Positions 9,834 to 31,338 of a DNA stretch of 64,000 nt are shown here, in pieces. Source of the stretch: Bradyrhizobium sp. 186 (GTDB lineage Bacteria; Pseudomonadota; Alphaproteobacteria; Rhizobiales; Xanthobacteraceae). The first letter of the stretch is position 1. Every line of letters starts with the position of its first letter. The position numbers were made by a program, and so were the translations under genes. The stretch is from positions 7,502,001 through 7,566,000 of the forward strand of contig NZ_CP082164.1 of assembly GCF_023101685.1 (NCBI RefSeq), written 5' to 3'. The notes below the pieces were generated by a model. The model saw only the letters and a list, made by a program, of their open reading frames with translations. It had not been told where the DNA came from and did not search any database.

Positions 9834-10012
9834 GGAAGGCGCGCCAAGCGCTCAGCTGCGCCAATTCGAGACAGTATTGATCCGGAATTGAACTCTATCC
9901 GCAGTTGCTGCATTTTGAGAACGTGCGTTAGCGCCTTGGGCTAGCGCCTCCTTGGCAGCAATCCGGCTTCGGCCCGATTGTCCTTGCTCGGGCGTTTCCT
10001 CCCTAGACTTGG

Positions 10013-10044
10013 GCCGCTTGTCACAACAAGCGGCTCTTCTTTTT
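10013..10044 (+). terminator. Rho-independent terminator-like hairpin
   Basis: A 9-bp stem (gccgcttgt paired with acaagcggc) around a short loop is followed by tcttcttttt. It lies about 180 bases past the nuclease stop on the plus strand and is the likely terminator of that transcript. Confidence 0.6.
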
Positions 10045-10079
10045 GTGCGCCCTCCTGGAGCATCATCTACGGAAGGTCG

Positions 10080-10432
10080 TCATGCCCGGGCTTGTCCCAC
10101 GGCTGTCCGGTTCAGGCTTCGGCGTCAAAAAGCGAGTCGCTAGAGTCAATTAATGGCGTCGGGGCATAGCTGCGAATACTTGTTGTTCGCGAGAACACCG
10201 CAAATTTTCTTCATTGCGGACCTCAGCATACTCCGCTGCGGGTCGCTCGGCTAAAACGAGAGCGCAAAAATCGTGAGTCATATCAATGAATTTTGCGCTC
10301 ATTACGAGTCGGTGCGTCTCGTTGCAACCGTTTTGCCTGAACCGGACAGCCGTGGGCTTGTCCCGGGCATCCACGTTCTTCGCGCCGTGGGTAAGGCGTG
10401 GATGGCCGGGACAAGCCCGGCCATGACGACGT
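10080..10432. repeat. Rhizobial palindromic repeat pair with a 22-bp perfect inverted repeat
   Basis: The gene-free stretch 9834-10460 holds a terminator hairpin and this structure. A fragment starting catgcccgggcttgtcccac at 10081 contains a 22-base segment (10096-10117). Its exact reverse complement lies at 10335-10356, followed by a fuller copy of the repeat ending ccggccatgacgacgtgg at 10432. The roughly 220 bases between the arms have no recognisable gene. A related repeat lies at 42456-42541. Confidence 0.6.
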
Positions 10433-10460
10433 GGAAGCTTCAACGGACCAAGCGCCCACT

Positions 10461-10850
10461 CTATCTGCGCATCTGCATGATCTGGTCCATCGGCGGCATG
10501 TTCTGATTGAGATGCGCCATGATCCAGACGGTTCCACCGACCACCAGGAAGACGACCAGCAACCCGAAGGCGAGCGCCAGCACGTTGTTGGTGTTGTCAG
10601 GTCCCGTCGTGATGTGCAGGAAGAACACCAGATGCACGCCCATCTGCGCGATCGCGAGCACGATCAGCGCGACCGGGATGGAGGGCTGCCAGACCAGATT
10701 GGTGCCGGCGATGAAGAACGACGTTGCCGTAAGCAGCAGCGCGAGACCGAGGCCGACCGTGTAGCCGAGGATCCGCGCACCGACACTGTGTTCCTCTTCC
10801 TCGCCTGGTGCGAGGTCGTGTTCGGTCCGCGCGTGGATCTGATCGCTCAT
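10461..10850 (-). CDS. cyoD: Cytochrome o ubiquinol oxidase subunit IV
   Basis: A 129-residue subunit with three predicted transmembrane helices, including ILGYTVGLGLALLLTATSFF, ALIVLAIAQMGVHLVFFLH and VLALAFGLLVVFLVVGGTVW. The motif QMGVHLVFFLHI is characteristic of CyoD. The start overlaps the cyoC stop as ATGA, so the two are translationally coupled. It is the last gene of the run. No cyoE follows, so heme O synthesis must rely on a copy elsewhere. Confidence 0.92.
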   Translation of the reverse strand: MSDQIHARTEHDLAPGEEEEHSVGARILGYTVGLGLALLLTATSFFIAGTNLVWQPSIPVALIVLAIAQMGVHLVFFLHITTGPDNTNNVLALAFGLLVVFLVVGGTVWIMAHLNQNMPPMDQIMQMRR

Positions 10851-11488
10851 ACGCCACTCCCAAGCAGGTAAACGACGGAAAACACTGCGACCCAAATGAT
10901 GTCGAGCGCGTGCCAGAACAGCGCAAAGCACATCATGCGGCGCAGGATGTCGGCGCGAAAGCCTTTTGCGAACACCTGCGCCATCATGGTCAGGAGCCAG
11001 AGCACGCCGGCCGAGACGTGCAGGCCGTGACATCCGACCAGCGAGAAGAACGCTGTCAGGAACGCGCTACGCGACGGACCATAGCCGCGGGAGACCAGAT
11101 CGGCGAACTCGCGAAACTCCATGGCGAGGAACACGAGCCCCAGCACGCAGGTCACGGCCATGCCAAAGTAGAACCAGAACCGGTTGCGCACATCGGCCGC
11201 GATGCTTGCCATGCCGCAGGTGAAGCTCGACAGCAGCAGGCAGACCGTCTCGATCGCAACATTTCGCTGTTCGAAAATCTCGGAGCCCTTCGGGCCGCCC
11301 GCAGTCTGGCCGACCAGCACCGCATAGGCCGCGAAGAAGCAGGAGAACATCACGATGTCGGAGAGCAGGAAGACCCAGAAGCCGTAGGCGGTCACAATGC
11401 GCTTCGACGCGGGGCCGGGATGCTCAATGACGATTCCGATGTGATGGGGATCGGCATGGGCGCGGCCGACGGTCGCGGTCATCGACAT
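10847..11488 (-). CDS. cyoC: Cytochrome o ubiquinol oxidase subunit III
   Basis: A 213-residue membrane subunit with five predicted helices, such as GFWVFLLSDIVMFSCFFAAY and FLTAFFSLVGCHGLHVSAGVLW. The FFSLVGCHGLHV segment is typical of heme-copper oxidase subunit III. It belongs to the terminal oxidase that reduces oxygen with ubiquinol in the inner membrane. It starts inside the cyoB stop (TGATG) and overlaps cyoD, so cyoBCD is a tightly coupled unit. Confidence 0.93.
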   Translation of the reverse strand: MSMTATVGRAHADPHHIGIVIEHPGPASKRIVTAYGFWVFLLSDIVMFSCFFAAYAVLVGQTAGGPKGSEIFEQRNVAIETVCLLLSSFTCGMASIAADVRNRFWFYFGMAVTCVLGLVFLAMEFREFADLVSRGYGPSRSAFLTAFFSLVGCHGLHVSAGVLWLLTMMAQVFAKGFRADILRRMMCFALFWHALDIIWVAVFSVVYLLGSGV

Positions 11489-13491
11489 CAGATCGCCCCT
11501 GCCATGCTGACGAGGCTGCGCCGTTCCTCGAGATTGACGCGGTCAATGCGCGCGACCTCCTCGGCCGGAATGACGTATTCGTCATGGTCGCGCCAGGCGA
11601 ACACGACGAAGGTCGCGAACGCGCCGATGCCGCCCAGGATCACCATCCACCACATGTGCCAGATCAGCGCAAAGCCCATGATGGTGGCGAAGAACGCGCA
11701 GACGAAACCGGTCGGCGAATTCCGGGGCATCTCGATGTCCTGGTATTCCGGTCCTTCATGCTCGAGCGATTGCTGCTGGGCATGGATCTTCATGTCCCAA
11801 TAGGCGTCCTCGCCGCGCACATCGGGAGAGAAGGCGAAATTGAACACCGGTGGCGGCGACGACGTCGCCCATTCCAGCGAACGGCCATCCCAGGGATCGC
11901 CGGTGCGGTCGCGTAACGCCTCGCGATTGCGGATGCTGACCACGATCTGCATGACCTGGCAGATCACGCCGACCGTCAGCACGACCATGCCAATCGCCGC
12001 CACGATCATCCAGGGCCGCCACGCCGCGACATCATAGTGTTGCATGCGCCGCGTCATGCCGAGCATGCCGGCGATATAGAGCGGAACGAAGGTGACATAG
12101 AAACCGAGGAAGGTGAACCAGAACGCGGCCTTGCCCCAGCGCTCGTCGAGGCGAAACCCGAACGCCTTCGGAAACCAGTATTCGAAGCCGGCGAACGCGC
12201 CGAACAGAACGCCGCCGATGATGACATTATGAAAGTGCGCCACCAGAAACATGCTGTTGTGGAGCATGAAGTCGGCCGGCGGCACGGCGACCAGCACGCC
12301 GGTCAATCCGCCGATGATGAAGGTGACCATGAAGCCGACCGCCCACAGCATCGGCGTCTCAAATCTGATGCGTCCGCCATACATCGTGAACAGCCAGTTG
12401 TAGATCTTTACCCCGGTCGGTATCGCGATGATCATGCTGGCGATGCCGAAGATGGCGTTGACGTCGGGGCCCGCGCCCATCGTGAAGAAATGGTGCAGCC
12501 AGACCATGAAGGAGATGACGCAGATCGCCATGGTCGCGAGCACCATCGAGCGATAGCCGAACAGCGCCTTGCCGGAGAAGGTCGAGACCACCTCGGAGAA
12601 GATGCCGAAGGCCGGCAGCACGAGGATGTAGACCTCCGGATGCCCCCAGGCCCAGATCAGGTTCATGAACATCATGACATTGCCACCGGCTTCATTGGTG
12701 AAGAAGTGGAAGCCGAGATAGCGGTCGAGCAGGAGCATCGCGAGCGTGGCGGTGAGGATCGGGAAGGCCGCGACGATCAGAAGGTTTGAGGCCAGTGTCG
12801 TCCAGCAGAACATCGGCATGCGCAGATAGTTCATGCCCCTGGTGCGCAGCTTCAGCACGGTGGTGACGAGGTTGATGCCGGCGACCAGCGTGCCGACGCC
12901 CGAGATCTGGAGCGACCAGGCGTAATAGTCGACACCGACGCCGGGCGAGTAGGACAGTTCCGACAGCGGCGGAAAGGCGAGCCAGCCGGTGCGGGCGAAC
13001 TCGCCGATCACGAGCGAGAGATTGACCAGCAGCGCGCCGGTCGCGGCCAGCCAGAAACCCACCGAATTGAGCGTCGGAAAAGCGACATCGCGCACGCCCA
13101 ACTGAAGCGGCACGATCAGGTTCATCAGCCCGATCACGAACGGCATCGCCACGAAGAAGATCATGATGGTGCCGTGGGCCGAAAAGATCTGGTTGTAGTG
13201 CTCCGGCGGAAGATAGCCCTGCGACTGGTAGGCGACCGCTTGCTGGATCCGCATCATGATGGCGTCGCTGCCGCCGCGCAGCAGCATCACCGAAGCCAGC
13301 AGGATATACATGACGCCGATGCGCTTGTGATCGACGCTGGTGATCCATTCATGCCAGAGATAAGGCAGATGCCCCTTCACCACGACCCAGATCAGCACCG
13401 CGAGGATCGCGACCAGTACCACAGCACCCGCAAGCAGTGGGATCGGCTGGTCGAACGGGATGGCCGACCAATCGAGCTTACCGAGCATCAT
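11488..13491 (-). CDS. cyoB: Cytochrome o ubiquinol oxidase subunit I
   Basis: This is the catalytic subunit of about 667 residues, with the usual 15 or so helices. The binuclear-centre ligands are visible: [20 protein letters not shown] with the His-Tyr pair, WLHHFFTMG with the two copper histidines, and [14 protein letters not shown] with the heme histidines. The motif [17 protein letters not shown] is near the N-terminus. The length matches enterobacterial CyoB. I start it at [16 protein letters not shown]. This overlaps the end of cyoA by 14 bases, a coupled junction. Confidence 0.94.
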
Positions 13492-14317
13492 GGCCTCCAC
13501 TGTGCGGCCGGCCGGCATCGGAGATCAGCTCGGGTCCGGGCCCTGGCGGAATGTGCTGGGTCGAAATCAGGTCGAACAGCCGGGGATCGTCGAGCCGATA
13601 CGTCGGCCTGCCTGTCTCGATGCCCTGCTGCATCAGCTTCGTGTAGCTCTCCTCATTGAGAACGGCATCGGACTTCGCCGTGGTCGCCACCCAATCCGGA
13701 AACGCGAGCGGCGAGACCACGTTGACGTCGAACATCATGTCGGGAAAACCATCGCCGGAGAAATGCGCCGACAGGCCCTGAAGCTTGCCCTCATTGTCGG
13801 CGCGCAGGTTCAGCTTCGTCACCATGCCGTTCATGGTGTAGATCATGCTGCCGAGCTGCGGGATGAAGAACACGTTCATCACGCTCGACGACGTCAGCTG
13901 GAAATTCAGCTCGACGCCGGTCGGCACGGTCAATGTGTTGACGGTGGCGATACGCTGGTCCGGATAGATGAAGAGCCATTTCCAGTCGAGCGAGACGGCC
14001 TGGATGCGGACCGGGCTGCCGGTCCCCGGCACGGGTGCCGCTGGATCGAGCTGGTGCGAGCCGATCCAGGCGACGCCGCCGAGCAGGATGACGGTGAGCG
14101 CGGGGATCGCCCACACCACCATTTCGATCCGGCCGGAATAGACGAAGTCCGGCTGATAGCGCGCCTTCGGATTGGACGCGCGAAACCAGAACGCAAACGC
14201 CAGGATCGCGATGATGGTCGGCACCACGATCGCAAGCATGATGAAGACGGAATCGACCAGGATGGTGCTGTTGGCCGCAGCGACCGGCCCCTGTGGATCG
14301 AGCAGATTCATCGGCAA
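13478..14317 (-). CDS. cyoA: Cytochrome o ubiquinol oxidase subunit II, apparently without signal peptide
   Basis: This 279-residue subunit II has two transmembrane helices ([20 protein letters not shown] and [20 protein letters not shown]). A cupredoxin-like periplasmic domain follows ([34 protein letters not shown]) and lacks CuA ligands, as in quinol oxidases. Family members normally start with a lipoprotein signal peptide. Here the frame opens only at a TTG (MPMNLLDPQ) or the ATG two codons later. Upstream in the same frame a short ATG-initiated peptide MRLRLLPGRVSR ends at TAG (14351-14353). A TVAC lipobox-like string is visible in another frame just before MNLLDPQ. The N-terminus may therefore be damaged. 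An inverted repeat (catgt/acatg, 14453-14472) lies in the likely promoter region. Confidence 0.88.
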
Positions 14318-14546
14318 GCCACTGTCGATTGGGAAGCCCCGAGGGAGAGCCTAACGCGAAACACGCCCCGGCAGCAAACGCAGTCGCATGAAAACGGTTC
14401 CTGAGCCGCAAGGACCAGCCACGCGCAATGAGCCAGGCGCAACATGCAATTCCATGTGATGTCAATGACATGAACGCATGAGCCACGCCCTTCTCTCCTG
14501 TCGGGGCGATTGCTAATCTGCACGAAAATAGATGGGATGAAACGAC

Positions 14547-14899
14547 ATGCAGGGCCCCGAGGACGATGCCGGTCTCGCCGGCAAGGTGGCTCTGGTCAGC
14601 GGCGGCGGCTACATCCGCTTCAAGAGCAAGCCCGATCCGCGCTTGCGGGAGCTTGCGATCCTCCAGGTCGGCTGGATAGAGAAGTCGGAAGGCGCGCGCG
14701 AGATGGTACGCGAACTCGCGATGTCGGATGCGCCTTTGCCGAGATCAAGCAGCATCTCTCCGACGAGCACATGGTCGACCTCGTGCTGACCATCGCCTTC
14801 TACTGCGCCGTGGTGCGCGTGCTCGCCACCATGAAGATCGACAACGAGCCGACTTACAAAGAGGTACTGCAGCAGTACCCGATTTCGGGAGTGAACTGA
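14547..14899 (+). pseudogene. Chimeric remnant: SDR N-terminus joined to carboxymuconolactone decarboxylase-like fragment, frameshifted
   Basis: The first codons read GLAGKVALVSGGG, the nucleotide-binding start of a short-chain dehydrogenase. Directly after it comes YIRFKSKPDPRLRELAILQVGW, which belongs to carboxymuconolactone decarboxylase / AhpD-like proteins. That frame stops soon after. The continuation FAEIKQHLSDEHMVDLVLTIAFYCA to PISGVN is found in another frame, with the shift near 14725. I read this as an internal deletion fusing two neighbouring genes, followed by a frameshift. An intact SDR starts two bases after its stop. Confidence 0.7.
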
Positions 14900-14900
14900 C

Positions 14901-15701
14901 ATGCGCTTGAAGGACAAGATTGCGATCGTCGTGGGCGCCGGCCAGAGCCCCGGCGAAGGCATGGGCAATGGCCGCGCCACCGCGCTAACCTTCGCGCGCG
15001 AAGGCGCCAAGGTGCTCTGCGTCGATCATCACCTGGAATCGGCGCAGGAAACCGTCGCCTTGATCGCCGCGAAGCAAGGCACCGCCGCGGCCTTCAAGGC
15101 CGACGTCACCAGTTCGGCCGATATCAAGGCGATGGTGGCCGACGCGCAGGCGCGCTGGGGCCGGATCGACGTGCTGCACAACAATGTCGGCGTCAGCCTG
15201 TCCGGCGGCGACGCCGAGCTGCTTCAATTGACCGAAGAGGCGTTCGACCGCGTCGTCGCCATCAATTTGAAGAGCTGCATTCTCGCCGCCAAGGAGGTGA
15301 TCCCGATCATGCGCGCGCAGACGAGCGGCGCGATCATCAACATCTCCTCGATGGCAGCGATCACGACCTATCCTTACGTCGCCTACAAGGCAACGAAATC
15401 GGCGATGATCGCCTTCACCGAACAGCTCGCCTACCAGAACGCCGAGTACGGCATCCGCGCCAACGTCATCTTGCCGGGCCTGATGAACACGCCGATGGCC
15501 GTCGACACCCGCGCCCGCGAATGGCACAAGACCCGCGCCGAGGTCGAAGCCGAACGCGACAGCAAGGTGCCGCTGCGCAAGAAGATGGGCACGGGATGGG
15601 ACGTGGCGAATGCCGCGCTGTTTCTGGCGTCGGATGAAGCGAATTTCATTACGGGTGTGACGCTGCCGGTGGATGGAGGGGCGAGTGTGAGAAGAGGATA
15701 G
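14901..15701 (+). CDS. SDR family NAD(P)-dependent oxidoreductase
   Basis: A 266-residue classical short-chain dehydrogenase. The cofactor motif is IVVGAGQSPGEGMGNG (a variant TGxxxGxG, residues 9-24). The NNVGVS motif (NNAG equivalent) lies near residue 94, a catalytic Ser in NISSMAAITT near 147, and YVAYKATKSA (YxxxK) near 159. The C-terminus GVTLPVDGGASVRRG is the usual ending. It starts directly after the preceding CMD-like remnant, suggesting both once belonged to one degradative operon. The substrate cannot be told from sequence. Confidence 0.85.
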   Translation: MRLKDKIAIVVGAGQSPGEGMGNGRATALTFAREGAKVLCVDHHLESAQETVALIAAKQGTAAAFKADVTSSADIKAMVADAQARWGRIDVLHNNVGVSLSGGDAELLQLTEEAFDRVVAINLKSCILAAKEVIPIMRAQTSGAIINISSMAAITTYPYVAYKATKSAMIAFTEQLAYQNAEYGIRANVILPGLMNTPMAVDTRAREWHKTRAEVEAERDSKVPLRKKMGTGWDVANAALFLASDEANFITGVTLPVDGGASVRRG

Positions 15702-15728
15702 CGATGCAAGTACTGCCCCTTCCTTCTC

Positions 15729-15855
15729 CCCTTGTGGGAGAAGGTGGCGCGAAGCGCCGGATGAGGGGTCGCATCCACGAACTCACAGGTCATTCGCGGA
15801 TAGAGACCCCTCACCCGGCTTCGCGTTCCGCGAAGCCACCCTCTCCCACAAGGGG
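15729..15855. repeat. Interspersed inverted repeat (ccttgtgggagaaggtggcg type)
   Basis: The left arm 15729-15770 (cccttgtgggagaaggtggcg, gaagcgccgg, atgaggggtc) is matched by a near-perfect inverse copy at 15805-15855. It lies between convergent genes and would fold into a long hairpin. The same family is abundant in rhizobial chromosomes. Confidence 0.6.
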
Positions 15856-15884
15856 CGAGGGTGCACCTTCACCGCGGCGCGAGT

Positions 15885-17213
15885 CTAATGCGTCACCCGC
15901 CATATCGTGCCGCTGCCGTCTTCCGAGATCAGCAACGCGCCGTCCTTGGCAACGGCGATCCCGACCGGTCTTCCCCACACCTCCGTGTCGTTCACGACGA
16001 ACCCCGTGACAAAATCCTCATACTCGCCCGTCGGCTTGCCGTCCTTCATCCTGATGCGGATCACCTTGTAGCCGGTGCGCTTCGAACGGTTCCAGGAGCC
16101 GTGCTCGGCGGCGAAGGCGTCGCCCTGATACTCGGACGGAAACTGCGTGCCCTGGTAGAACGTCATGCCGAGCGAAGCGGAATGCGGCTGCACCAGCACG
16201 TCCGGCACCGTCACCTTGTCCTTGAGGTCCGGCCGCGCACCGGCATGGCGCGGGTCTTCGTTGCCGCCGATATAGAACCACGGCCAGCCGTAGAAGGCGC
16301 CTTCCTGCACGCTGGTCACGTAATCAGGCACGAGATTATCGCCGAGGCCATCGCGCTCGTTGGTCGAGCACCAGGGCACGCCGGTTTGCGGCTGGATCGC
16401 AAGGCCGACGCAGTTGCGGATGCCGGTGGCGTAGAGCTTGCGGTCCTTGCCATCGGGCGTGAAGGCAAGCACGGCGGCGCGCTCGGCCTCATAGCCCCAG
16501 GATGCGCCGAGCGGCTGCGCCTTCGACCACGCCTCGAGCCCGCCGGGCGGATTGCCCATGCCGTCGCCGACATTGCCGGCCGAGCCGACCGAGACCAGCA
16601 TGCGCCTGCCATCCGGCGTGAACACGATGTCGCGGGTGGAGTGGCCCGATCCAGACGGCAGGCTCGCAACCACCGTCTCCGCCTTGGCGGACGCCTTGAG
16701 GTCGCCGACACGATAAGGAAAGCGAACGACGCTGCCGGTGTTGGCGACATAGAGCCATTGCGGATTGTCACCGCTCGGAAAGAACGCGATGCCGAAGGGT
16801 CGGCTCAGTCCGGTCGCATAGACTTCGTTGGTTGCGACCTTCGCGCCGCCTTCGCCCGCGCGCAGCACGCGGATGCGCCCGGCCCGCGTTTCCGCGACAA
16901 AGATATCGCCGTTCGGCGCGATACGAAGAACACGCGGGTCAGACAGGCCTTCGGCCAACAACTCGACCTTGAATCCCGGCGGCACCATCGGCATCGCGCC
17001 GGACCTTGCCGTCAAGCGCGTCGGATTGGCGACCGACGGCGAGGCGCCGGGCTTCGGCAGATCCTCGGGCCGGATCAGCCTGACGACACCGGGCTTGTCG
17101 GCCTGCCAACTGCCGAACGCATCCTTGCCTTGCAGCACGGACTCGGCCTGCGCGCCGGCGCAGACCGATAGCATCCATGCAGCGAGCGTCATGTGCGACA
17201 CATGCATCTTCAC
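15885..17213 (-). CDS. Exported PQQ-type / L-sorbosone dehydrogenase-like beta-propeller protein
   Basis: A 442-residue protein with a signal peptide (MTLAAWMLSVCAGAQAES). A six-bladed propeller of the soluble glucose / sorbosone dehydrogenase family follows. Recognisable strings are VELLAEGLSDPRVLRIAPNG, DIFVAETRAGRIRVLR, STRDIVFTPDGRRMLVSVGS, YATGIRNCVGLAIQPQTG and EHGSWNRSKRTGYKVIRI. It probably oxidises a sugar or aldehyde in the periplasm using pyrroloquinoline quinone. The start could be the first ATG or the one seven codons later, and both leave the signal peptide. It is transcribed away from the puuD-like gene. Confidence 0.82.
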   Translation of the reverse strand: MKMHVSHMTLAAWMLSVCAGAQAESVLQGKDAFGSWQADKPGVVRLIRPEDLPKPGASPSVANPTRLTARSGAMPMVPPGFKVELLAEGLSDPRVLRIAPNGDIFVAETRAGRIRVLRAGEGGAKVATNEVYATGLSRPFGIAFFPSGDNPQWLYVANTGSVVRFPYRVGDLKASAKAETVVASLPSGSGHSTRDIVFTPDGRRMLVSVGSAGNVGDGMGNPPGGLEAWSKAQPLGASWGYEAERAAVLAFTPDGKDRKLYATGIRNCVGLAIQPQTGVPWCSTNERDGLGDNLVPDYVTSVQEGAFYGWPWFYIGGNEDPRHAGARPDLKDKVTVPDVLVQPHSASLGMTFYQGTQFPSEYQGDAFAAEHGSWNRSKRTGYKVIRIRMKDGKPTGEYEDFVTGFVVNDTEVWGRPVGIAVAKDGALLISEDGSGTIWRVTH

Positions 17214-24201: not shown

Positions 24202-24483
24202 TCAGACGGGCCTGCACCTGTTCCTGCCGTTGTAGTTTAAGCACTGCATTTTGCGCGGTTTGCCGAGCCCCGTGGACCGCCCAGGAAGGCGGTTAACGGG
24301 ATGGCCCGCGCTGTCATAGACGGGGCGCCGGACGACGTTCGAGGCCAGCACAATGCTCGACTCCGACGCAATCGGGAGGAGAGGTGCCGCCATCGCGGAC
24401 ACTGGGTGTACGATGGCGACAAATGTTGCGCTGGCAACGGTGGCGACCGCGCATGCGATCGAAAATCTTCTGGTCTTTGTCAT
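24202..24483 (-). CDS. Small exported hypothetical protein
   Basis: A 93-residue protein with a signal peptide (MTKTRRFSIACAVATVASAT then FVAIVHPVSAMA). The short mature part includes SIVLASNVVRRPVYDSAGHP and ends KMQCLNYNGRNRCRPV with two cysteines. I recognise no domain. It is the first of the exported small proteins in this region that has a CGATCG-centred palindrome in front of it (24554-24571, about 80 bases upstream). The start is chosen at the ATG giving the signal peptide. Confidence 0.6.
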   Translation of the reverse strand: MTKTRRFSIACAVATVASATFVAIVHPVSAMAAPLLPIASESSIVLASNVVRRPVYDSAGHPVNRLPGRSTGLGKPRKMQCLNYNGRNRCRPV

Positions 24484-24553
24484 GGTTGTCGTAGCTCTCC
24501 GTCCGGCTTCCATTAATCCCCGATCAAGAATTGCATGGGACGAGTGAGCACGC

Positions 24554-24571
24554 GTCCTCCGATCGGTGGAC
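24554..24571 (-). promoter_or_regulatory. CGATCG-centred palindrome, site A
   Basis: The sequence gtcctccgatcggtggac has one arm mismatch around a cgatcg core. It is one of five related sites and lies about 80 bases upstream of the 24483 start. See the finding on the shared palindrome. Confidence 0.4.
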
Positions 24572-24594
24572 CTGCCCTCCGAGATAAGCAAAAA

Positions 24595-24622
24595 ATCGCA
24601 GCGCGAAAATTCGCGCTGCGAT
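24595..24622 (-). terminator. Perfect hairpin downstream of the 295-residue exported protein gene
   Basis: The arms atcgcagcgcga and tcgcgctgcgat flank an aaat loop, 28 bases after the stop of the gene at 24650-25537. On the minus strand the hairpin is followed by a T-rich tttttgctta. It has a near copy at 26228-26260. Confidence 0.6.
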
Positions 24623-24649
24623 CCTGCTTCGGTTCACGCTTGTTTCGAT

Positions 24650-25537
24650 TTAGTGCGGCTTGCGGTCGTTGCCGCCATTCGTGGACCGTGCTGAACCCGA
24701 CCCACCCGCCGTTTTTTGTGTCTGGGTCATGGTCACGCCACCTCCGCCACCCGATGCCTTTCGATGATCGCGGATAGCCGGCTCTGCCCCGTTGCTGGGT
24801 GGAGCATTCGTGCTGACCGTTCCAATGGGAGCTGCGGGCGGCGGACCGCCGGGCGTTGGGGCAGTAGCGGTACCTTGGCGATGATCGTTGACGACGGGAG
24901 CGGCGTTACCCAACGCGTCGCTGTTGCGATGGCCGGTCGGTTGGGGCACCGGTTGGCCCGCTGCGACCGCTCTGTCGCGGACGACCTTGTCGCGCCTCAG
25001 AGCGTACTCGTTTTTCGCAGTTGCCGGATTGGCGTATGCGGCATTGACGCCCGCGGCCTTAAGTTGTCGGGCTAATTCAGGATCCCAGACGTGATAACGG
25101 GCCCCGTTCGGCGCCAAAATCATCTGTCCGTTTTCGGTCGGAACGCCCTGCTTGACTGTATAGGTGCTGGTGCCCGCCCCATCTGTAACGACGACCGTGG
25201 TGTACTGGCCGTTCCAGCCCCGGTTCGGGTCGTCGTCGATGACACCCTTGCCGTTGCCCTTGCCTCCACCCGTTCCTCCCTTGTTAGTCTCCTTGCCTCC
25301 TGCCCCGCGGCCTCTCACGTCTTCGCCTTCATATCCCCTCTTTCTATTCCTGTTTTCGCACGCTTTCTCTGCTATGTTGCAGGCCCCGAACGAAGCCAAT
25401 TTTTCGCCGTCGCGAATGCAATGGTTGAATCTTGCCGAGCAGTTTTCGGGCTCGGCAAAGGCCAACTGGGTGAAGGCCCCGAAGCTGATCAGCGTGAGCG
25501 CGATGGCGAGTGTGGCTTGGTGTGAAAACTTGCGCAT
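24650..25537 (-). CDS. Exported glycine/asparagine-rich hypothetical protein
   Basis: A 295-residue protein with signal peptide MRKFSHQATLAIALTLISFG and AFTQLAFAEP. An N-terminal cysteine motif follows (CSARFNHCIRDGEK, ACNIAEKACENRN). A glycine-rich basic linker (GGKETNKGGTGGGKGNGKG) precedes a small beta-like segment (GQYTTVVVTDGAGTSTYTVK). The C-terminal half is proline/glycine-rich and probably disordered. No known domain is visible. It looks like a secreted or periplasmic structural protein. Its terminator-like hairpin and part of its 3' end recur as a remnant at 26218-26345. Site B lies about 110 bases upstream. Confidence 0.6.
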   Translation of the reverse strand: MRKFSHQATLAIALTLISFGAFTQLAFAEPENCSARFNHCIRDGEKLASFGACNIAEKACENRNRKRGYEGEDVRGRGAGGKETNKGGTGGGKGNGKGVIDDDPNRGWNGQYTTVVVTDGAGTSTYTVKQGVPTENGQMILAPNGARYHVWDPELARQLKAAGVNAAYANPATAKNEYALRRDKVVRDRAVAAGQPVPQPTGHRNSDALGNAAPVVNDHRQGTATAPTPGGPPPAAPIGTVSTNAPPSNGAEPAIRDHRKASGGGGGVTMTQTQKTAGGSGSARSTNGGNDRKPH

Positions 25538-25640
25538 TCTGAGTCTCCGGTTGGTTCACAGTCTGTCCTGACTGTGGAATTGTTAGAATTACCCACCCCA
25601 TCAGCGCTGCCCGCATCATGGCCGTTTGCCGATCGCGCCG

Positions 25641-25660
25641 CGTCCTGCGATCGGGGGATA
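25641..25660 (-). promoter_or_regulatory. CGATCG-centred palindrome, site B
   Basis: The sequence cgtcctgcgatcgggggata matches the shared motif, with the core cgatcg at 25648-25653. It lies about 110 bases upstream of the gene starting at 25537. Confidence 0.4.
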
Positions 25661-25738
25661 CTCGCGCGAACCGATGGATCGTCGTCGCTAGGCCCGCTTC
25701 GCCTACATTCATGTTTTCGATCAAATTATGCGGCCGTC

Positions 25739-25758
25739 CATCCCTCGATCGGAGGATT
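25739..25758 (+). promoter_or_regulatory. CGATCG-centred palindrome, site C
   Basis: The sequence catccctcgatcggaggatt has the core cgatcg at 25746-25751. It lies about 135 bases upstream of the plus-strand gene starting at 25884, so this copy faces the other way from the others. Confidence 0.4.
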
Positions 25759-25883
25759 TGGCACTGACCGTTTTCCATCAGGATCGCGGTGAAACTCGCG
25801 GGATTTTCCCGGAGTTGCATTCAACGATCGATCAACGGCATTCGTCGAAACGCCGCAAGTGATCGAGCAAACAGGAAACGACT

Positions 25884-26147
25884 ATGCTGAAGAACCACGT
25901 AACAACACCCCGTATCCTTGCCACGCTTGCGGCGGGATTCATTCTGATGGCAGCGACGGAAGGTGCGCTCGCCCGGGTCAACACCGGCACCCGCCCGATT
26001 AGCACCAGCGCCGGCAAAGCTTTTGGCATCAATGCCGGTGTCGGCAAAGGCGTCGGCGCAGATGGCGGCGTTGCCATGGGCGGCAGCAGCGGTGCAGTTG
26101 TCCCCAAGCCGCCGCGGTTCCATCACCCCTTCCCTCCGCGTGATTAA
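25884..26147 (+). CDS. Small exported glycine-rich protein
   Basis: An 87-residue protein with signal peptide (ILATLAAGFILMAATEGALA). The mature part has a repetitive glycine/valine/alanine stretch (AGKAFGINAGVGKGVGADGG then VAMGGSSGAVV) and a basic-aromatic tail PRFHHPFPPRD. No known domain is visible. The composition resembles secreted glycine-rich peptides. A hairpin that may terminate it lies at 26228-26260. Site C is upstream. Confidence 0.55.
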   Translation: MLKNHVTTPRILATLAAGFILMAATEGALARVNTGTRPISTSAGKAFGINAGVGKGVGADGGVAMGGSSGAVVPKPPRFHHPFPPRD

Positions 26148-26217
26148 CTGACGTCAGCTCGCGACTGTCGGCGCCGCTTCAAGCCGTAGCCGGCAGTCGC
26201 CGCCGTTTTCGACGATA

Positions 26218-26345
26218 AGCACAAGCAGAAACGCAGCGCGAAATTTTCGCGCTGCGTTTCCGTTTCAACTTGTTCGATTTGTTGCGGGCTTGCGGCCGGT
26301 GCTCCACATGCTGTCCTGCCCGTGGAATTGGCCGAACCACTCGCC
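26218..26345. repeat. Hairpin plus collapsed remnant of a paralogue of the 24650-25537 gene
   Basis: The perfect hairpin 26228-26260 (arms gaaacgcagcgcgaaa and tttcgcgctgcgtttc) resembles the one at 24595-24622. It is followed by cttgttcgatttgttgcggg and cttgcggccgg, which match the sequence past the other hairpin and the last codons of that gene. Next comes ctgtcctgcccgtggaattg, which matches ctgtcctgactgtggaattg just upstream of that gene's start at 25565. The coding body between the two is missing. The hairpin probably also terminates the 25884 gene. Confidence 0.55.
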
Positions 26346-26348
26346 CGG

Positions 26349-26774
26349 CTAGCCGCCCGGCTGCGGCCCGACTACACCGCGTCGAAATAGATCTGATTGT
26401 TGCGACGTCCGCCCCGGATGCTTTCCGATAATGGGCGGGCTTTCATAGCGGCTATGCCTGTGCCGGCGCTCGTAGCGATACCGGTCGCCATGTTTGTGAC
26501 TTGAGCTGCCGTCATGGCCCACACGACCGTCACCTTTTCCGGGAATGGGAACGGGAGGAAGAGGCTTGCCGATCGGACCGCCGGGAGCGGGTTTTTCAAC
26601 GAGGAGAGCGGTGCCGCCACCTCCCGACTGGATCTTGGCTCCGGTGTTGCCGGTGCCGGGTCGGGCACCATTTCCTGCAGACGCATCACCCGTCGCCACG
26701 GCCAGGGCGATACCGACCATGAGCACCGGAAGAAGCCGGATCGACATGGCAAAACTTTTAGGTGTCTTCATCAA
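26349..26774 (-). CDS. Exported Gly/Pro/His-rich hypothetical protein
   Basis: A 141-residue protein with signal peptide (MSIRLLPVLMVGIALAVATG ending DASAG). The mature part is GNGARPGTGNTGAKIQSGGG, a proline-rich stretch (APGGPIGKPLPPVPIPGKGD), and a histidine/arginine/tyrosine-rich region (SSSHKHGDRYRYERRHRHSR). No domain is recognised. The His-rich tail could bind metal, but that is a guess. Two start choices exist (26774 or the inner ATG at 26747), and both keep the signal peptide. Site D lies about 100-130 bases upstream. Confidence 0.55.
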   Translation of the reverse strand: MMKTPKSFAMSIRLLPVLMVGIALAVATGDASAGNGARPGTGNTGAKIQSGGGGTALLVEKPAPGGPIGKPLPPVPIPGKGDGRVGHDGSSSHKHGDRYRYERRHRHSRYESPPIIGKHPGRTSQQSDLFRRGVVGPQPGG

Positions 26775-26875
26775 CTATCCTCTCGCTGATTTGGCGGGCG
26801 CGACGTGCTGCCTGCTAAAAAAATCCTGAACTCATTCAGAACAAGATTCGGCCGGACCCTAGGGCGGTGCTGAAA

Positions 26876-26907
26876 GGCCCGCGTCCTGCGATCGGAGGAC
26901 GCGGGCC
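26876..26907. promoter_or_regulatory. Perfect palindrome, site D (also possible terminator of the luxR-type gene)
   Basis: Twelve-base perfect arms (ggcccgcgtcct and aggacgcgggcc) flank gcgatcgg. It lies 46 bases after the LuxR-type gene stop and about 100 bases before the exported protein gene starting at 26774. It could therefore serve as a terminator, an operator or both. On the minus strand it is followed by tttcagc. Confidence 0.5.
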
Positions 26908-26952
26908 GAGAAAGCGACATGGCGATCTTTTTGGGTCTGCGCGGTATCCGGA

Positions 26953-28092
26953 TCAGACCGCCAGCGGCGTCGAAAAACCGGCGACCAGTTTGACCAGATC
27001 GGCCTGACGGCCGGCGCCGGTCTTTTCAAACAGCCGCCCGACATGCGTCTTGATGGTGGTTTCCGCGACGCCGAGGGCGGTCGCCACCTCGGGGACCCCG
27101 CCAACCTCAACGACGGCAATCAGCACGCGCAACTCCATTGGGGTCAATTTGAAAGCTCTGCCTATAACTTCCGGACGTGATGGAGTTTCCAACGCCGCCT
27201 TGCGGACGAATACCGCCGCGATCGCGGTGTGGTTAATTCCGGCGTCACGGCGCGCACCCGAGGTCAACGGCAGCACGTGCGCGACGTAACGCTCGCCATC
27301 ATGCGCCGTCAACGGCAATGCAATGCCCTTGATGCCGAGCGCCGCATTACCCTGCGCAGCAAATGCAAATACTTCCCGCAAGGTCTGGTTGACCTGCGCA
27401 TCACCTGCCACAAGCTGACCTCTGATCGAACGCAGGAAATCACCGGCCCCGAGAATTGCACGTCCAGCCACATTGGCGTGGGCGATCTGCCCGCGGCCAT
27501 CCACGAGAAACATGCCGGCGCTAAGGCCATCGAGGGTTTCGGCGAGCGCAGCTGTTTCGGCGCGCCTGAAATCGATCGCCTTGCCGATGAGGATCGCGCG
27601 GCGGACATGAGGCACGATACCGGCGATACGCCGACGCATTTCGCCGTCGACCATACCGCCCAACTTGTCCCGGACGATTCCGAGAAACGCGCAACTCGTC
27701 AGCGACTTCTCGAGCACCGCGCTTGCAACGTCGGTCCACCCCTGCGGCCGCGCCCATTCCTGATAAAAGCGCCCCTGGCGATATTCCTCATAGGGTACGA
27801 GATCCGGAAGGCTCACGATCTCTCCCACACCAAAGAGCGGCACGCCTGCCAGCGGATCCAATTGCGCATAAGTCTTCGAATAAGCCTGCATCTCGCTGGG
27901 ATCGACCCCGTACTGATGGCGGGCCTCGACAACTGCGCTCGTTGAATCAATCACGGCAAGCGCGCCAGCTCGAGCTCCGGCAAAGTCGGCAATCTTCGCG
28001 AGCACGCCGGTCCACATTGCAGGATCGAGCGCAGCATCGTAGATTTCGCCAACAAGACTGCTGTTTTTTTCAGCTTCGGACGTGTCGCTCAT
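26953..28092 (-). CDS. LuxR-type helix-turn-helix transcriptional regulator
   Basis: A 379-residue regulator. The N-terminal two thirds read like the sensory part of rhizobial LuxR-type proteins (LVGEIYDAALDPAMWTGVLA near the start, then a PAS-like segment LDGLSAGMFLVDGRGQIAHA). The C-terminal HTH is FKLTPMELRVLIAVVEVGGV, then PEVATALGVAETTIKTHVGR and LFEKTGAGRQADLVKLVAG. The start is set at MSDTSEAEKNS because upstream residues are non-native. Its position amid the exported proteins that share a palindrome makes it the obvious candidate regulator, but that is inference. The ligand is unknown. Confidence 0.82.
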   Translation of the reverse strand: MSDTSEAEKNSSLVGEIYDAALDPAMWTGVLAKIADFAGARAGALAVIDSTSAVVEARHQYGVDPSEMQAYSKTYAQLDPLAGVPLFGVGEIVSLPDLVPYEEYRQGRFYQEWARPQGWTDVASAVLEKSLTSCAFLGIVRDKLGGMVDGEMRRRIAGIVPHVRRAILIGKAIDFRRAETAALAETLDGLSAGMFLVDGRGQIAHANVAGRAILGAGDFLRSIRGQLVAGDAQVNQTLREVFAFAAQGNAALGIKGIALPLTAHDGERYVAHVLPLTSGARRDAGINHTAIAAVFVRKAALETPSRPEVIGRAFKLTPMELRVLIAVVEVGGVPEVATALGVAETTIKTHVGRLFEKTGAGRQADLVKLVAGFSTPLAV

Positions 28093-28469
28093 CCGCAACG
28101 CGGGCTTGGAGACGCGACCGGCCGCTCGAATTTTCTGGATTTCTCGAATCACACTTGTCAAGAACGCTCTCCCGTCAAAATGAATACACAAAACTTGCGA
28201 TATGAATGGCAGCACGGCACGGCAACCCGTGGTGGCCCCAGATTGAATAATTGCAACGGCGGCCTCGCGAAAAACGAAGATGCGGCCCGGCGCCGCTCGG
28301 CAACAAGGCAGTGCATGACTCCAGGTAGCCCCGTGCTCGCGAACTGCCAACTAGCAGTCCTCGGCATGTACGACTAGTTCAGGAAATGAATCGGGCGTGG
28401 GCGGAACTGACCTGAGCAATTTCGGTCGCCTGGCCATTTGTTGCGGTCGCAGGCACTATCCAGCCAAGG

Positions 28470-28706
28470 ATGCCCCAGAATGGGGATGGTTCGACCGTCC
28501 TGCACAACTGCACTTTCCAGGGTCGAGATCGCCTCGGTCCGGCGAACCTGCCCTTGGCGTTTCCATCGACAAAACTTGCAGAGTCCTTCGTTGCCGACCC
28601 CGCGTACGACTCTTACATCGCGGCTCGCAAAGCCGGTAGTGAAAGCCGCTTCCAACTAATCGACGGTACCGATTTGGCAGGTACAATATCGTATGTATCT
28701 GCGTAA
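28470..28706 (+). CDS. Doubtful small ORF, possible gene fragment
   Basis: A 78-residue frame whose second half (LPLAFPSTKLAESFVADPAY, DSYIAARKAGSESRFQLIDG) has protein-like composition. It lacks a convincing ribosome site and its N-terminus looks random. The whole stretch 28093-29199 is otherwise gene-poor and of lower GC. A minus-strand frame at 28715-28969 is equally uncertain. I see no other gene in that kilobase. Confidence 0.2.
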   Translation: MPQNGDGSTVLHNCTFQGRDRLGPANLPLAFPSTKLAESFVADPAYDSYIAARKAGSESRFQLIDGTDLAGTISYVSA

Positions 28707-29199
28707 GGGATGAGTTACGGGCCACGCGCACTTGCATGACCTAATCCCGCGCTCCTCTTCCTTGCGAGCATCCTGCGGAGCATTCGACTTTCCGACGGTG
28801 TAAAGTGGAATTCGACAAGACTGCTAACGTCGCCTAACTCATGCAGACTCGCGTAGTAGATTCGATGAGGACGCATCATCGAGAGAGCGGCTTTACTTTT
28901 CCGGGTCTTTATCGAGGAACGATCCGGATTTCCGCACAAGAAGGGATGCGTCGAGCAGCCGATACTCACTTGGCAATGTGAACGGCGAGTTTGGCGGTAA
29001 CCAGCTTAAGGGGCTCGCCGAAGCCTGGGCAGGTTTCGTTTCTCTCGGTGCCTTCAAGGCCATGGACGACTCCCTTTAAAATGTTGCCTGCATTTGTCGG
29101 TATTTGGCGTCACGGGCGCCACATCCTCGTCATTTTCGACGCCGGTGTTTCCCGTTCATCGTTACGTGAGCGCACGATTTCACCGAAGGCTCGCCGCCT

Positions 29200-29718
29200 T
29201 CAGTCATTTCGCAAGAATATATAGTCTGCCGAATAGGGCACGCTGCGGAAGGCACCCGCTTCGTCGCATGGTCCGCGTGCTAAGCCGCCTCGAGTGTTGA
29301 CACGCTGCACGTGGGTCACACCGGAAAATTTGCCCTTGCCGCGTTGATCCACAACATCGAGCTGGAGCCATGGGATATCGTCCTCGGTCGCGCCAGGCGC
29401 GCTGCTGGCCGATTTTGCCTGTATCACGCTGCCATCGACGTACTCCCAACGCGGGCCCGCGTAGTGGCGCCCAACCGTGCTGCCGTCGAAAATAAGCGTG
29501 GCAGTCGGCTCACGGGCCCGCCAAGCGAGATTGCCGTCGGACGCGGCCCTGCACTCGTAGACCTGGGCTCCTTCGGCATGAAGGACAGCAGCAACTGCCA
29601 GGCCGGGCGTTGCAATTGCTGCGGAGACCTCGACCGAGGGATGGGACGCAGTAGCCGCGTTAAACGATCCGACGCTCAGTGCGAAGACGAATAGCGGCAG
29701 TTTCCAACAAGCATTCAT
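29200..29718 (-). CDS. Exported DUF3455 family protein
   Basis: A 172-residue protein with signal peptide (MNACWKLPLFVFALSVGSFN then AATASHPS). The body matches the DUF3455 pattern: HAEGAQVYECRAASDGNLAW, TVGRHYAGPRWEYVDGSVI, ATEDDIPWLQLDVVDQRGKG, GVTHVQRVNTRGG and SVPYSADYIFL. Family members are found in fungi and bacteria and have no assigned function. I start at the ATG of MNACW. A weak hairpin just downstream (29180-29196) may terminate it. No CGATCG palindrome lies in front, only a ggaggacgcga half-site at 29749. Confidence 0.75.
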   Translation of the reverse strand: MNACWKLPLFVFALSVGSFNAATASHPSVEVSAAIATPGLAVAAVLHAEGAQVYECRAASDGNLAWRAREPTATLIFDGSTVGRHYAGPRWEYVDGSVIQAKSASSAPGATEDDIPWLQLDVVDQRGKGKFSGVTHVQRVNTRGGLARGPCDEAGAFRSVPYSADYIFLRND

Positions 29719-29875
29719 GGCTATTCTCATAGATGATGGGGGATGCCTGGAGGACGCGAGCAATTCGCGGTCGAACAGTTATGGTCATGATCGAAGTCCG
29801 GTTTCCGCGGCCAGGCTTCGTGGGGCGAAGGGCGAATGCGAAAGGCTTCGAGGGCGGGAGCGTCCCGCCAACACG

Positions 29876-29902
29876 TGGGCGACGGGTATGAACCCGCCGC
29901 CC
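29876..29902 (-). terminator. Hairpin downstream of the 310-residue exported protein gene
   Basis: The arms gggcgacgggt and acccgccgccc (one mismatch) flank a short loop about 20 bases after the stop at 29922. There is no strong T-run, so it may be only a transcript-end stabiliser. Confidence 0.4.
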
Positions 29903-29921
29903 GCGCGATCGATTGCAGAGG

Positions 29922-30854
29922 TCACCAAGCAGTAAAGAGGTCATAGATATCCTTCGCCGACTCTTCCACTTCGTGAGCGGCGCCCTTAATGCCACCTTTG
30001 GCGAGGCCGTACCCAGCAGCAACGGGAGGGACAAAGGTGAGGACTCCAACTCCTAACGCGGCCTTGTCGGCAGTCATCCCAATCTTAATACCTGGTGAAT
30101 CAAAACCGGTGACAGTGCCTCGAGTGGTCGGCGCCTCCGGCGTCGGCGCAACGCTGACGACCGTCTTGCCTTCCCCGTTTTTGGCGCCAACTTGAACGTT
30201 GTTCTGCGCGGCTCCGACACCGAGCGCGTTGGACACGGTCACCGAGCTCCCGTTCAAGGTCACCGAATCCTTACCGTTGGTCACCGTGATCTTGCCTGGA
30301 CCGCTGGAATACGCCGAAACCCCTCCCGCACCATTGGGGATTTCATACTTGGTCACGCCGTTGGACACGGTCACGTTGCCGGCCGGCGGACTGACGATGG
30401 GGTGGATCGTGTTTACGGCCGAAGTGACGCCGGTCGGGCTTCCGGAACCGGAAGCGACGGGATTGCTTGCAACGGTCTGCGGTGGCTTTCCGCTGGCCGC
30501 CTCGACCGGCTTGCCGCCAGAAGGCATCTTGTGCCTGCCGTCACCAAGCCGCTCTCCGTCACGGCTCCACTTTTCATGCTTGTGGTCCTGCTCGTTGCCA
30601 TGCTTGTTGGAGCGATCGAACTTCGCATGATCAGAGTTGGGCTTGTCGCCGCCATGACGCTCCGCGAGGATGGGACGAATGTCGTTCCGACCGGGATTGG
30701 CAGTGGTGAGCCTGGCGTTATCGCCTCTACCTTGACCAGAATTGTTGCCGCCATGATGCCCGGCATTGCCTGGCGCGCCCGCAAGCAGAAGGATCCCAGC
30801 CGCAAGCGTTGCGATGGAGCCGGTCGATCTAACGAGGCATTTGAATTCTTTCAT
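29922..30854 (-). CDS. Exported hypothetical protein with charged linker and repetitive beta-like region
   Basis: A 310-residue protein with signal peptide (GSIATLAAGILLLAGAPGNA). A His/Asp/Lys-rich, probably disordered segment follows (HHGGNNSGQGRGDNA, RSNKHGNEQDHKHEKWSRDG). Next comes a Ser/Thr/Val/Gly repetitive region with short alternating strands (GNVTVSNGVTKYEI, GKITVTNGKDSVTLNGSSVT, VSNALGVGAAQNNVQVG). The C-terminus is hydrophobic and helical (ALGVGVLTFVPPVAAGYGLA). The V-x-N-G pattern recalls beta-solenoid or adhesin-like surface proteins, but no family is certain. Site E is about 100 bases upstream. Confidence 0.6.
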   Translation of the reverse strand: MKEFKCLVRSTGSIATLAAGILLLAGAPGNAGHHGGNNSGQGRGDNARLTTANPGRNDIRPILAERHGGDKPNSDHAKFDRSNKHGNEQDHKHEKWSRDGERLGDGRHKMPSGGKPVEAASGKPPQTVASNPVASGSGSPTGVTSAVNTIHPIVSPPAGNVTVSNGVTKYEIPNGAGGVSAYSSGPGKITVTNGKDSVTLNGSSVTVSNALGVGAAQNNVQVGAKNGEGKTVVSVAPTPEAPTTRGTVTGFDSPGIKIGMTADKAALGVGVLTFVPPVAAGYGLAKGGIKGAAHEVEESAKDIYDLFTAW

Positions 30855-30950
30855 GGTTCACCTGCTGTGTTCGGTCGCAGATTCCAAATGGGCTGCGACT
30901 GGGTTGCCGATCTCTTCCCCGGCAACAACAGTGACCTCGCCTTGGGCGCC

Positions 30951-30974
30951 CTGCGTCCCCCGATCGGAGGACGC
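30951..30974 (-). promoter_or_regulatory. CGATCG-centred palindrome, site E
   Basis: The sequence has gcgtcc (30953-30958) and ggacgc (30969-30974) as inverted ends around cccgatcgga, with core cgatcg at 30961-30966. It lies about 100-120 bases upstream of the gene starting at 30854. Confidence 0.4.
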
Positions 30975-31262: not shown

Positions 31263-31338
31263 GGTTGCGGAGACGGGATTTGAACCTATGACCTCAAGAT
31301 CATGAGCCTGACGAGCGAGCGGGCCAACCCAGCCCCGG
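31262..31338 (-). pseudogene. Degenerate tRNA-fMet(CAT)-like sequence
   Basis: On the minus strand the 3' part reads gctcgtcaggctcatgatct, then tgaggtcataggttcaaatc, then ccgtctccgcaacca. The encoded CCA end, T-loop gttcaaat and CAT anticodon loop match initiator tRNA. The anticodon stem and T-stem have mismatches, and the 5' acceptor strand does not pair with the 3' strand. It is probably a decayed tRNA copy or a trace of a tRNA-targeted integration. It is unlikely to be functional. Confidence 0.6.

Follow-up and report, generated by a model that had tools for sequence, protein, structure and literature searches.

In the literature drawn on here, the lux box is an inverted repeat centred at -42.5 (PMC3376562), with CT(N12)AG typical of such boxes (PMC4338825). 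The PAS-LuxR regulators of Streptomyces, such as PimM and PteF, combine a PAS domain with a LuxR-type helix-turn-helix; the palindromic operator, CTVGGGAWWTCCCBAG, lies in the -35 region of promoters that mostly serve antibiotic genes (PMC9774167). LuxR solos are defined by a domain that binds acyl-homoserine lactones (AHL), and for those of alphaproteobacteria unverified palindromes without CT(N12)AG have been reported nearby (PMC4338825). The subject of this study is a set of five palindromes, A to E, in a 6.4-kb part of a 64,000-nucleotide stretch of Bradyrhizobium sp. 186 (NCBI RefSeq assembly GCF_023101685.1, contig NZ_CP082164.1, positions 7,502,001 to 7,566,000 of the forward strand), the whole of which is referred to as the window and supplies the coordinates used below. 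Each palindrome precedes a gene for an exported protein, and among them lies a gene for a LuxR-type protein. Sequence comparison leads us to read each palindrome, with a probability of about 0.8, as a putative operator of an activator-dependent promoter that would be read by this neighbouring protein, a system that falls within a known kind, the regulons of LuxR-type activators.

The resemblance to the lux box extends to an inverted repeat of about 20 bp centred at -42.5 (counted here from predicted transcription starts), to a regulator with a GerE helix-turn-helix, and to a distance of 12 bases between the key pairs of the half-sites. The lux box sequence has GATC at its centre, as do the window operators. 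The key pairs themselves differ, being TC(N12)GA in the window, with T at 0.99 and C at 0.98 in a matrix over 204 sites that is described below. As in the PAS-LuxR systems, the palindromic operator lies in the -35 region, but its matrix consensus, gCgTCMTCCGATCGGAKGAcGc, is not CTVGGGAWWTCCCBAG, and the window protein is predicted by structural modelling to carry an extra N-terminal domain of about 165 residues ahead of its PAS-like part. The LuxR solos of Bradyrhizobium and other alphaproteobacteria offer a further parallel in the orphan LuxR-type gene with conserved palindromes in nearby promoters. From these solos, and from quorum-sensing LuxR proteins, the system is set apart by a family search in which no AHL-binding family matched the window protein at E 0.01 and none appeared among the best 25 of the 28 families of 38 homologues; the N-terminal AHL-binding domain is PF03472. 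No description of the operator came up in searches of the open-licence literature on LuxR-type, autotransporter and AraC regulation in Bradyrhizobium, on the lux box, on PAS-LuxR proteins and on transcription start maps.

Five palindromes in front of exported-protein genes

All five palindromes named in the preliminary description are present, its positions being right within a few bases, and each can be placed in a common frame, the 22-mer GCGTCCTCCGATCGGAGGACGC. The 12-base perfect arms that it reported for site D are read at 26876-26887 and 26896-26907, and its estimate of 80-140 bases between site and gene agrees well with dyad-to-start-codon distances of about 79-136 (A about 79-80, B 113, C about 135-136, D about 120-121, E about 109-110). 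The five genes that it took to encode signal peptides all satisfy a simple signal-peptide rule of our own making. The features are as follows.

24202..24483, minus strand: gene A, 93-aa exported protein, without Pfam or NCBIfam match at E 0.001
24527..24532, minus strand: predicted -10 of promoter A, AATTCT; predicted start 24520
24552..24573, minus strand: putative operator A, dyad 24562.5, upstream of gene A; found with 22-mer and matrix
24650..25537, minus strand: gene B, 295-aa exported protein, without Pfam or NCBIfam match at E 0.001
25615..25620, minus strand: predicted -10 of promoter B, CATGAT; predicted start 25608
25640..25661, minus strand: putative operator B, dyad 25650.5; found with 22-mer and matrix
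25738..25759, plus strand: putative operator C, weakest of the five, dyad 25748.5; found with looser 17-mer and matrix
25779..25784, plus strand: predicted -10 of promoter C, CAGGAT; predicted start 25791
25884..26147, plus strand: gene C, 87-aa exported protein
26349..26771, minus strand: gene D, 140-aa exported protein
26856..26861, minus strand: predicted -10 of promoter D, TAGGGT; predicted start 26849
26881..26902, minus strand: putative operator D, near-perfect, dyad 26891.5, between the luxR stop and gene D
26953..28092, minus strand: luxR-type regulator gene, 379 aa from the likely ATG; proposed activator
29200..29718, minus strand: DUF3455 gene, exported by the simple rule, in the same direction as gene E and 203 bases downstream of it
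29922..30854, minus strand: gene E, 310-aa exported protein
30928..30933, minus strand: predicted -10 of promoter E, CACTGT; predicted start 30921
30953..30974, minus strand: putative operator E, dyad 30963.5; found with 22-mer and matrix

The start of gene D is better taken as 26771 (ATG) than as 26774 (TTG). Its family comprises 29 database proteins including itself, and that of gene E 43, again including itself, among the best 8000 candidates, none of the 43 with a precomputed Pfam domain. The names given by the sources in both families are "hypothetical protein" or, in a single instance from family D, "Secreted protein".

The palindromes differ in quality, with 10 of the 11 dyad positions paired in D and E, eight in A, and seven in B and C. 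At three or fewer mismatches the 22-mer consensus has A, B, D and E as its only matches in the window, where 100 shuffles give an expectation of 0.00. Site C is weaker and was found solely with a looser 17-mer, which hits exactly these five places; its 10 strand matches compare with a mean of 4.7 expected, a mild enrichment of little significance by itself, with 3 of 100 shuffles reaching this number. Across the genome of 10,772,313 bases, perfect matches to the 17-base core GTCCTNCGATCGGNGGA number four, namely A, B, D and E. A looser symmetric pattern occurs at 27 places in the genome, five of them within these 6.4 kb, and the remaining 22 stand singly except for one pair 1.5 kb apart. When 16 of those 22 were scored with the matrix, only the places at 2080634 (21.8) and 4503125 (32.8) exceeded 20; the window sites score 25.3 (A), 22.7 (B), 17.6 (C), 33.3 (D) and 29.3 (E).

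These numbers bear on the notion that the palindromes are chance occurrences or copies of a mobile repeat of the repetitive extragenic palindromic (REP) type. Such a view could appeal to the abundance of CGATCG, which by itself is not enriched in the window (87 found, 81.7 expected), and to core matches with two mismatches, which are dispersed over the genome. It is nevertheless scarcely credible, given the 22-mer expectation and the retention of site and spacing by orthologues in relatives (80 and 81 bases for gene A, 136 and 138 for gene C). The flanks, judged by eye, are dissimilar outside the operator save for the -10 element, and the longest direct repeat linking any of the sites measures 32 bases at 81%. 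The REP-like repeat was rejected on the shuffles of the 22-mer, the unlike flanks and this comparison of repeats.

Promoter geometry

When the sites are turned towards their own genes and bases are counted from the dyad, a -10-like hexamer, NAnnnT, stands at positions 31-36 in all five. The combination of A at position 32 and T at position 36, present in 5/5, reaches at most 2/5 at any other offset or on the far side. Among 20,000 random quintets drawn from the window, not one attained 5/5 at any of 93 offsets. The orientation claimed earlier, with each site tracking the strand of its gene, thus stands by way of the -10-like element in five of five cases, whereas the palindrome alone has no strand. 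The spacing recurs among relatives. Of the 204 matrix sites, 160 have a called gene start 25-260 bases away, and in 83 non-redundant sites taken from these A32 is present in 67%, compared with a mean of 21% (standard deviation 9.5%) over positions 13-79, while YA at 31-32 is present in 55, compared with 8% elsewhere and with no such peak on the far side.

The housekeeping promoter of Bradyrhizobium has been given as TTG-N16-18-TATA (PMC4842269). At the present sites the -35 hexamer is missing: TTG at the -35 place occurs in 4 of the 83, which is background, TTGACA fits no better there than elsewhere, and a consensus scan found no sigma-70-type promoter at any of the five window sites, among which only C has TTG at positions 10-12 (by eye). 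If the hexamer at 31-36 is taken as the -10 element (-12 to -7), the start would fall 43 bases past the dyad and 32 past the edge of the palindrome, and the dyad therefore at -42.5, so that all five sites, measured from these predicted starts, show the lux-box arrangement of an inverted repeat of about 20 bp centred at that position. An operator over the -35 place, a missing -35 hexamer and a fixed -10 spacing, shifted by one base in the group with luxR targets, make up a class-II-type promoter geometry. On the strength of the spacing, the position of the dyad and the missing hexamer, the five sites most probably serve as operators for an activator of class-II type rather than as leader hairpins.

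The preliminary description had left the choice among operator, promoter element and leader hairpin open. Operator together with promoter agrees with the spacing, with the -42.5 position and with the conservation alongside LuxR discussed below. That the palindromes work as RNA, in the form of leader hairpins or terminators, is by comparison very improbable. Site D does form a 12-bp GC-rich stem right after the luxR stop and might incidentally terminate transcription of luxR, and the location of 196 of the 204 sites outside called genes is compatible with operator and RNA functions alike. The fixed spacing of the -10 element argues against RNA, however, and because the predicted start lies 43 bases beyond the dyad the palindrome would not be part of the leader. 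Moreover, none of the five sites is among the nine terminator-like places of the region, and Rfam returned two hits, both elsewhere and under the gathering score. The hairpin and terminator options were rejected on the spacing, the terminator scan and the Rfam result.

The same geometry suggests activation, not repression. The same LuxR-type protein might bind the operators and repress, blocking polymerase at promoters that are otherwise active; a site over the -35 region would permit such blocking, and sites before luxR homologues are compatible with negative autoregulation. This arrangement seems unlikely because a repressed promoter should retain a -35 hexamer, which is missing here by both the TTG and the TTGACA comparison, and the -10 elements of the window (AATTCT, CATGAT, CAGGAT, TAGGGT, CACTGT) are poor. 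Under activation by the LuxR-type protein, a dimer of the product of 26953-28092 would bind the 22-bp inverted repeat with its core TCnTnCGATCGnAnGA, substitute for the -35 hexamer and contact RNA polymerase as LuxR does at a lux box with its dyad at -42.5, whereby the poor -10 element (YAnnnT, +31 to +36) could fire.

The LuxR-type protein and its association with the motif

The LuxR-type protein is the sole regulator among eight proteins of the cluster scanned with Pfam. Its GerE helix-turn-helix (PF00196, residues 316-369) is matched in all 38 homologues; PF13188 (PAS_8) matches 20 of the 38, with no PAS match in the window protein. The AlphaFold model of the latter (mean predicted local distance difference test score 85, predicted template modelling score 0.57) comprises an alpha-beta domain at the N-terminus, then a long helix, another alpha-beta domain and finally the helix-turn-helix, with the helices of the last region at 306-372 and a mixed alpha-beta, PAS-like domain at about 190-300. 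Genes of the luxI type (PF00765) gave four matches in three regions of the genome (G000:C2:281441, G000:C1:9038966-9039480 and G000:C1:498981), one of them apparently split across two frames, and none in the window.

A survey that started from the motif alone, at two or fewer mismatches, covered 98 genomes of the genus. A site is present in 36 of these and a reversed control pattern in 17; a homologue of the LuxR-type protein matches at E 1e-50 in 34. Among the 76 motif places, 39 lie within 6 kb of a gene of this LuxR family and 30 within 250 bases; with the genome of the window excluded, the corresponding figures are 35 and 29 of 72. Genomes with a strong homologue (E <=1e-100) have a site in 24 of 29 cases compared with 12 of 69 others (Fisher p 1.4e-9). 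A complementary view comes from 72 homologue loci retrieved with the LuxR protein, on which the symmetric matrix was trained. It finds 199 sites in 63 of the 72, plus the five window sites, whereas 30 column-shuffled matrices average 1.9 sites with a maximum of 14. Within the recognition helix, 24 of the 29 homologues that have local sites carry both T349 and R353, as against 0 of the 9 that have none, a comparison uncorrected for kinship, the presence of a site being somewhat clustered on the homologue tree (6 changes, against 8.4 in shuffles). This co-occurrence, together with the sites in front of luxR homologues, supports the candidate proposed in the preliminary description, so that the regulator is likely the LuxR-type gene among the sites.

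Several observations weigh against this assignment and the promoter model that goes with it. A two-mismatch site is present in 12 of the 69 genomes without a strong homologue, which may be largely chance, since this rate of 17% equals that of the reversed control (17/98). Of the 76 places in the genus 37 lie away from a homologue, 23 of these in genomes with a strong homologue. The loci searched with the matrix had also served to train it, and as they were selected by protein the result speaks for conservation rather than independence; nine of the 72 lack a site. In the window itself no site stands in front of the luxR gene. As to the promoter, T36 is universal in the window yet present in 31% of the 83 sites, the -10 element before luxR genes is one base nearer (TATGCT, 30-35), and sites with autotransporter targets show no clear -10 element. 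When 198 genomes of the family were scanned with the full 22-mer, six had matches, with none for the reversed control. Of the six places outside the window's own genome, L164, which is from another genus, is the only one where a homologue lies within 1.5 kb; one of the loci is cut short. Three of the family-wide places have a called gene in range, and A32 is present only in that of locus L161. Finally, a related palindrome, GCGTCCGCCGAACGGAGGACGC, lies 182-190 bases before a 140-aa gene (MKHVGNCFCGAV...) in loci L042, L044, L049 and L161, and in two of the genomes with GCGTCCGCCGAACGGAGGACGC, G062 and G071, none of the 20 candidates scored per genome reached E 1e-50 as a LuxR homologue. The presence of GCGTCCGCCGAACGGAGGACGC in genomes without such a homologue means that a second reader of similar sites may exist.

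Another regulator altogether, a different LuxR-type protein or an AraC protein, might bind the operators, the luxR neighbourhood having other reasons. In favour of such a regulator are the sites in genomes without a strong homologue, above all those before the 140-aa gene just described, and the frequency of AraC genes as targets or neighbours in relatives, where they represent a group of 40 target proteins. The link of half of the motif-first places to the LuxR family argues otherwise, as do the recognition-helix residues that track the presence of sites and the possibility that the 12 of 69 are largely chance; a tblastn search of the window at E up to 1 with the AraC protein of locus L092, moreover, brought up no relative. 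On balance a different regulator is improbable, and the LuxR-type protein is retained as the proposed activator.

The GCGTCCGCCGAACGGAGGACGC copies occupy positions of about 1501-1522 in all four of their loci and have T31-A32 in three of them; by eye, the 140-aa gene is GFA-like. In distant genomes, genes for membrane proteins that by eye are NnrU-like recur beside sites (L066, L161, L167).

Targets of the motif

The proposed regulon comprises, in the window genome, the five exported-protein promoters around luxR and probably one distant gene. The latter encodes an 85-aa protein and starts 144 bases past the strong site at 4503125, in a 3-kb locus without luxR (L028/L152), where it is a probable regulon member. 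Targets and distances in the relatives are approximate because the simple gene caller overlooks several atypical genes of the window, and each target family takes its name from one to three representatives. The large groups are luxR homologues (43, with the site 55-95 bases ahead of the start in 36), the group with an AraC representative (40), the 85-aa protein (26), autotransporters (20) and outer-membrane beta-barrels (9).

The two nearest relatives, Bradyrhizobium AS23.2 and SSUT77 (L061 and L062), have LuxR proteins 80-82% identical to that of the window and preserve much of the cluster. Gene C has its operator at 138 bases (136 in the window), gene D at 118 and 114 (121) and gene E at 81-104 (110), and SSUT77 retains gene A with its operator at 81 bases (80). 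Gene B departs from the window arrangement: in these relatives it comes after E, in one row with DUF3455, and no site is called for it separately. As this row of E, B and DUF3455 occurs twice in AS23.2 and once in SSUT77, the DUF3455 gene of the window is probably read from promoter E. The two copies in AS23.2 (L061 12964-15531 and 18333-20904), each with an operator before E, have the appearance of a cargo duplication.

The preliminary description had envisaged a regulon of secreted proteins and a genome search for further copies before signal-peptide genes. The first idea fits the window cluster and the two nearest relatives; across relatives the targets also include luxR, AraC regulators and a small protein without signal peptide. 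The search, run in part, showed that strong copies concentrate in the cluster and that other copies are mostly lone and weak, and it lent no weight to the expected excess of signal peptides, which are not enriched over all targets of the relatives (53/200, compared with 24% of all called genes), where regulators dominate.

Related bacteria apparently employ the motif, with an activator of this kind, to control further surface proteins and regulators. What the analysis offers, for a LuxR-type family found in 34/98 genomes of the genus at the E 1e-50 threshold, is a putative operator and the geometry of its promoters, together with a candidate regulator and a list of targets. Among these targets are many envelope or exported proteins from soil and plant-associated bacteria, several of them in no known family, and for this reason the switch would offer a handle on when they are made. 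The pairing of TC(N12)GA with an unaltered lux-box spacing constitutes a natural case for the study of how LuxR-type proteins change the DNA letters that they recognize. A more tentative thought, which we hold to be possible but somewhat doubtful, is that operator and -10 element form a portable promoter cassette, served by one family of LuxR-type sensors, with ever-changing surface proteins downstream. The lineage would then swap its cell-surface cargo, orphan exported proteins here and autotransporters or beta-barrels elsewhere, with the switch unchanged.

Some smaller features of these loci may be added. At about 9900-17000 of loci L079, L092 and L102, tandem luxR homologues are followed by a site and by genes that by eye are those of a TauE/SafE-like transporter and of RND-type efflux; the 85-aa gene behind that site is called in L102, and the window genome (L028) has preserved the surroundings of the transporter but has no luxR there. 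Before the DUF3455 gene, at about 29749, lies a half-site, GGAGGACGCGA, whose candidacy as a sixth operator was given up because it is a single half some 30 bases from the start codon. Between regulon genes of the window, two similar hairpins with T-rich tails, at 24592-24625 and 26226-26262, are probably terminators. At 31265-31305 a 3' piece of a tRNA gene, seen by eye and uncalled by ARAGORN, possibly marks an old integration edge beside the cluster.

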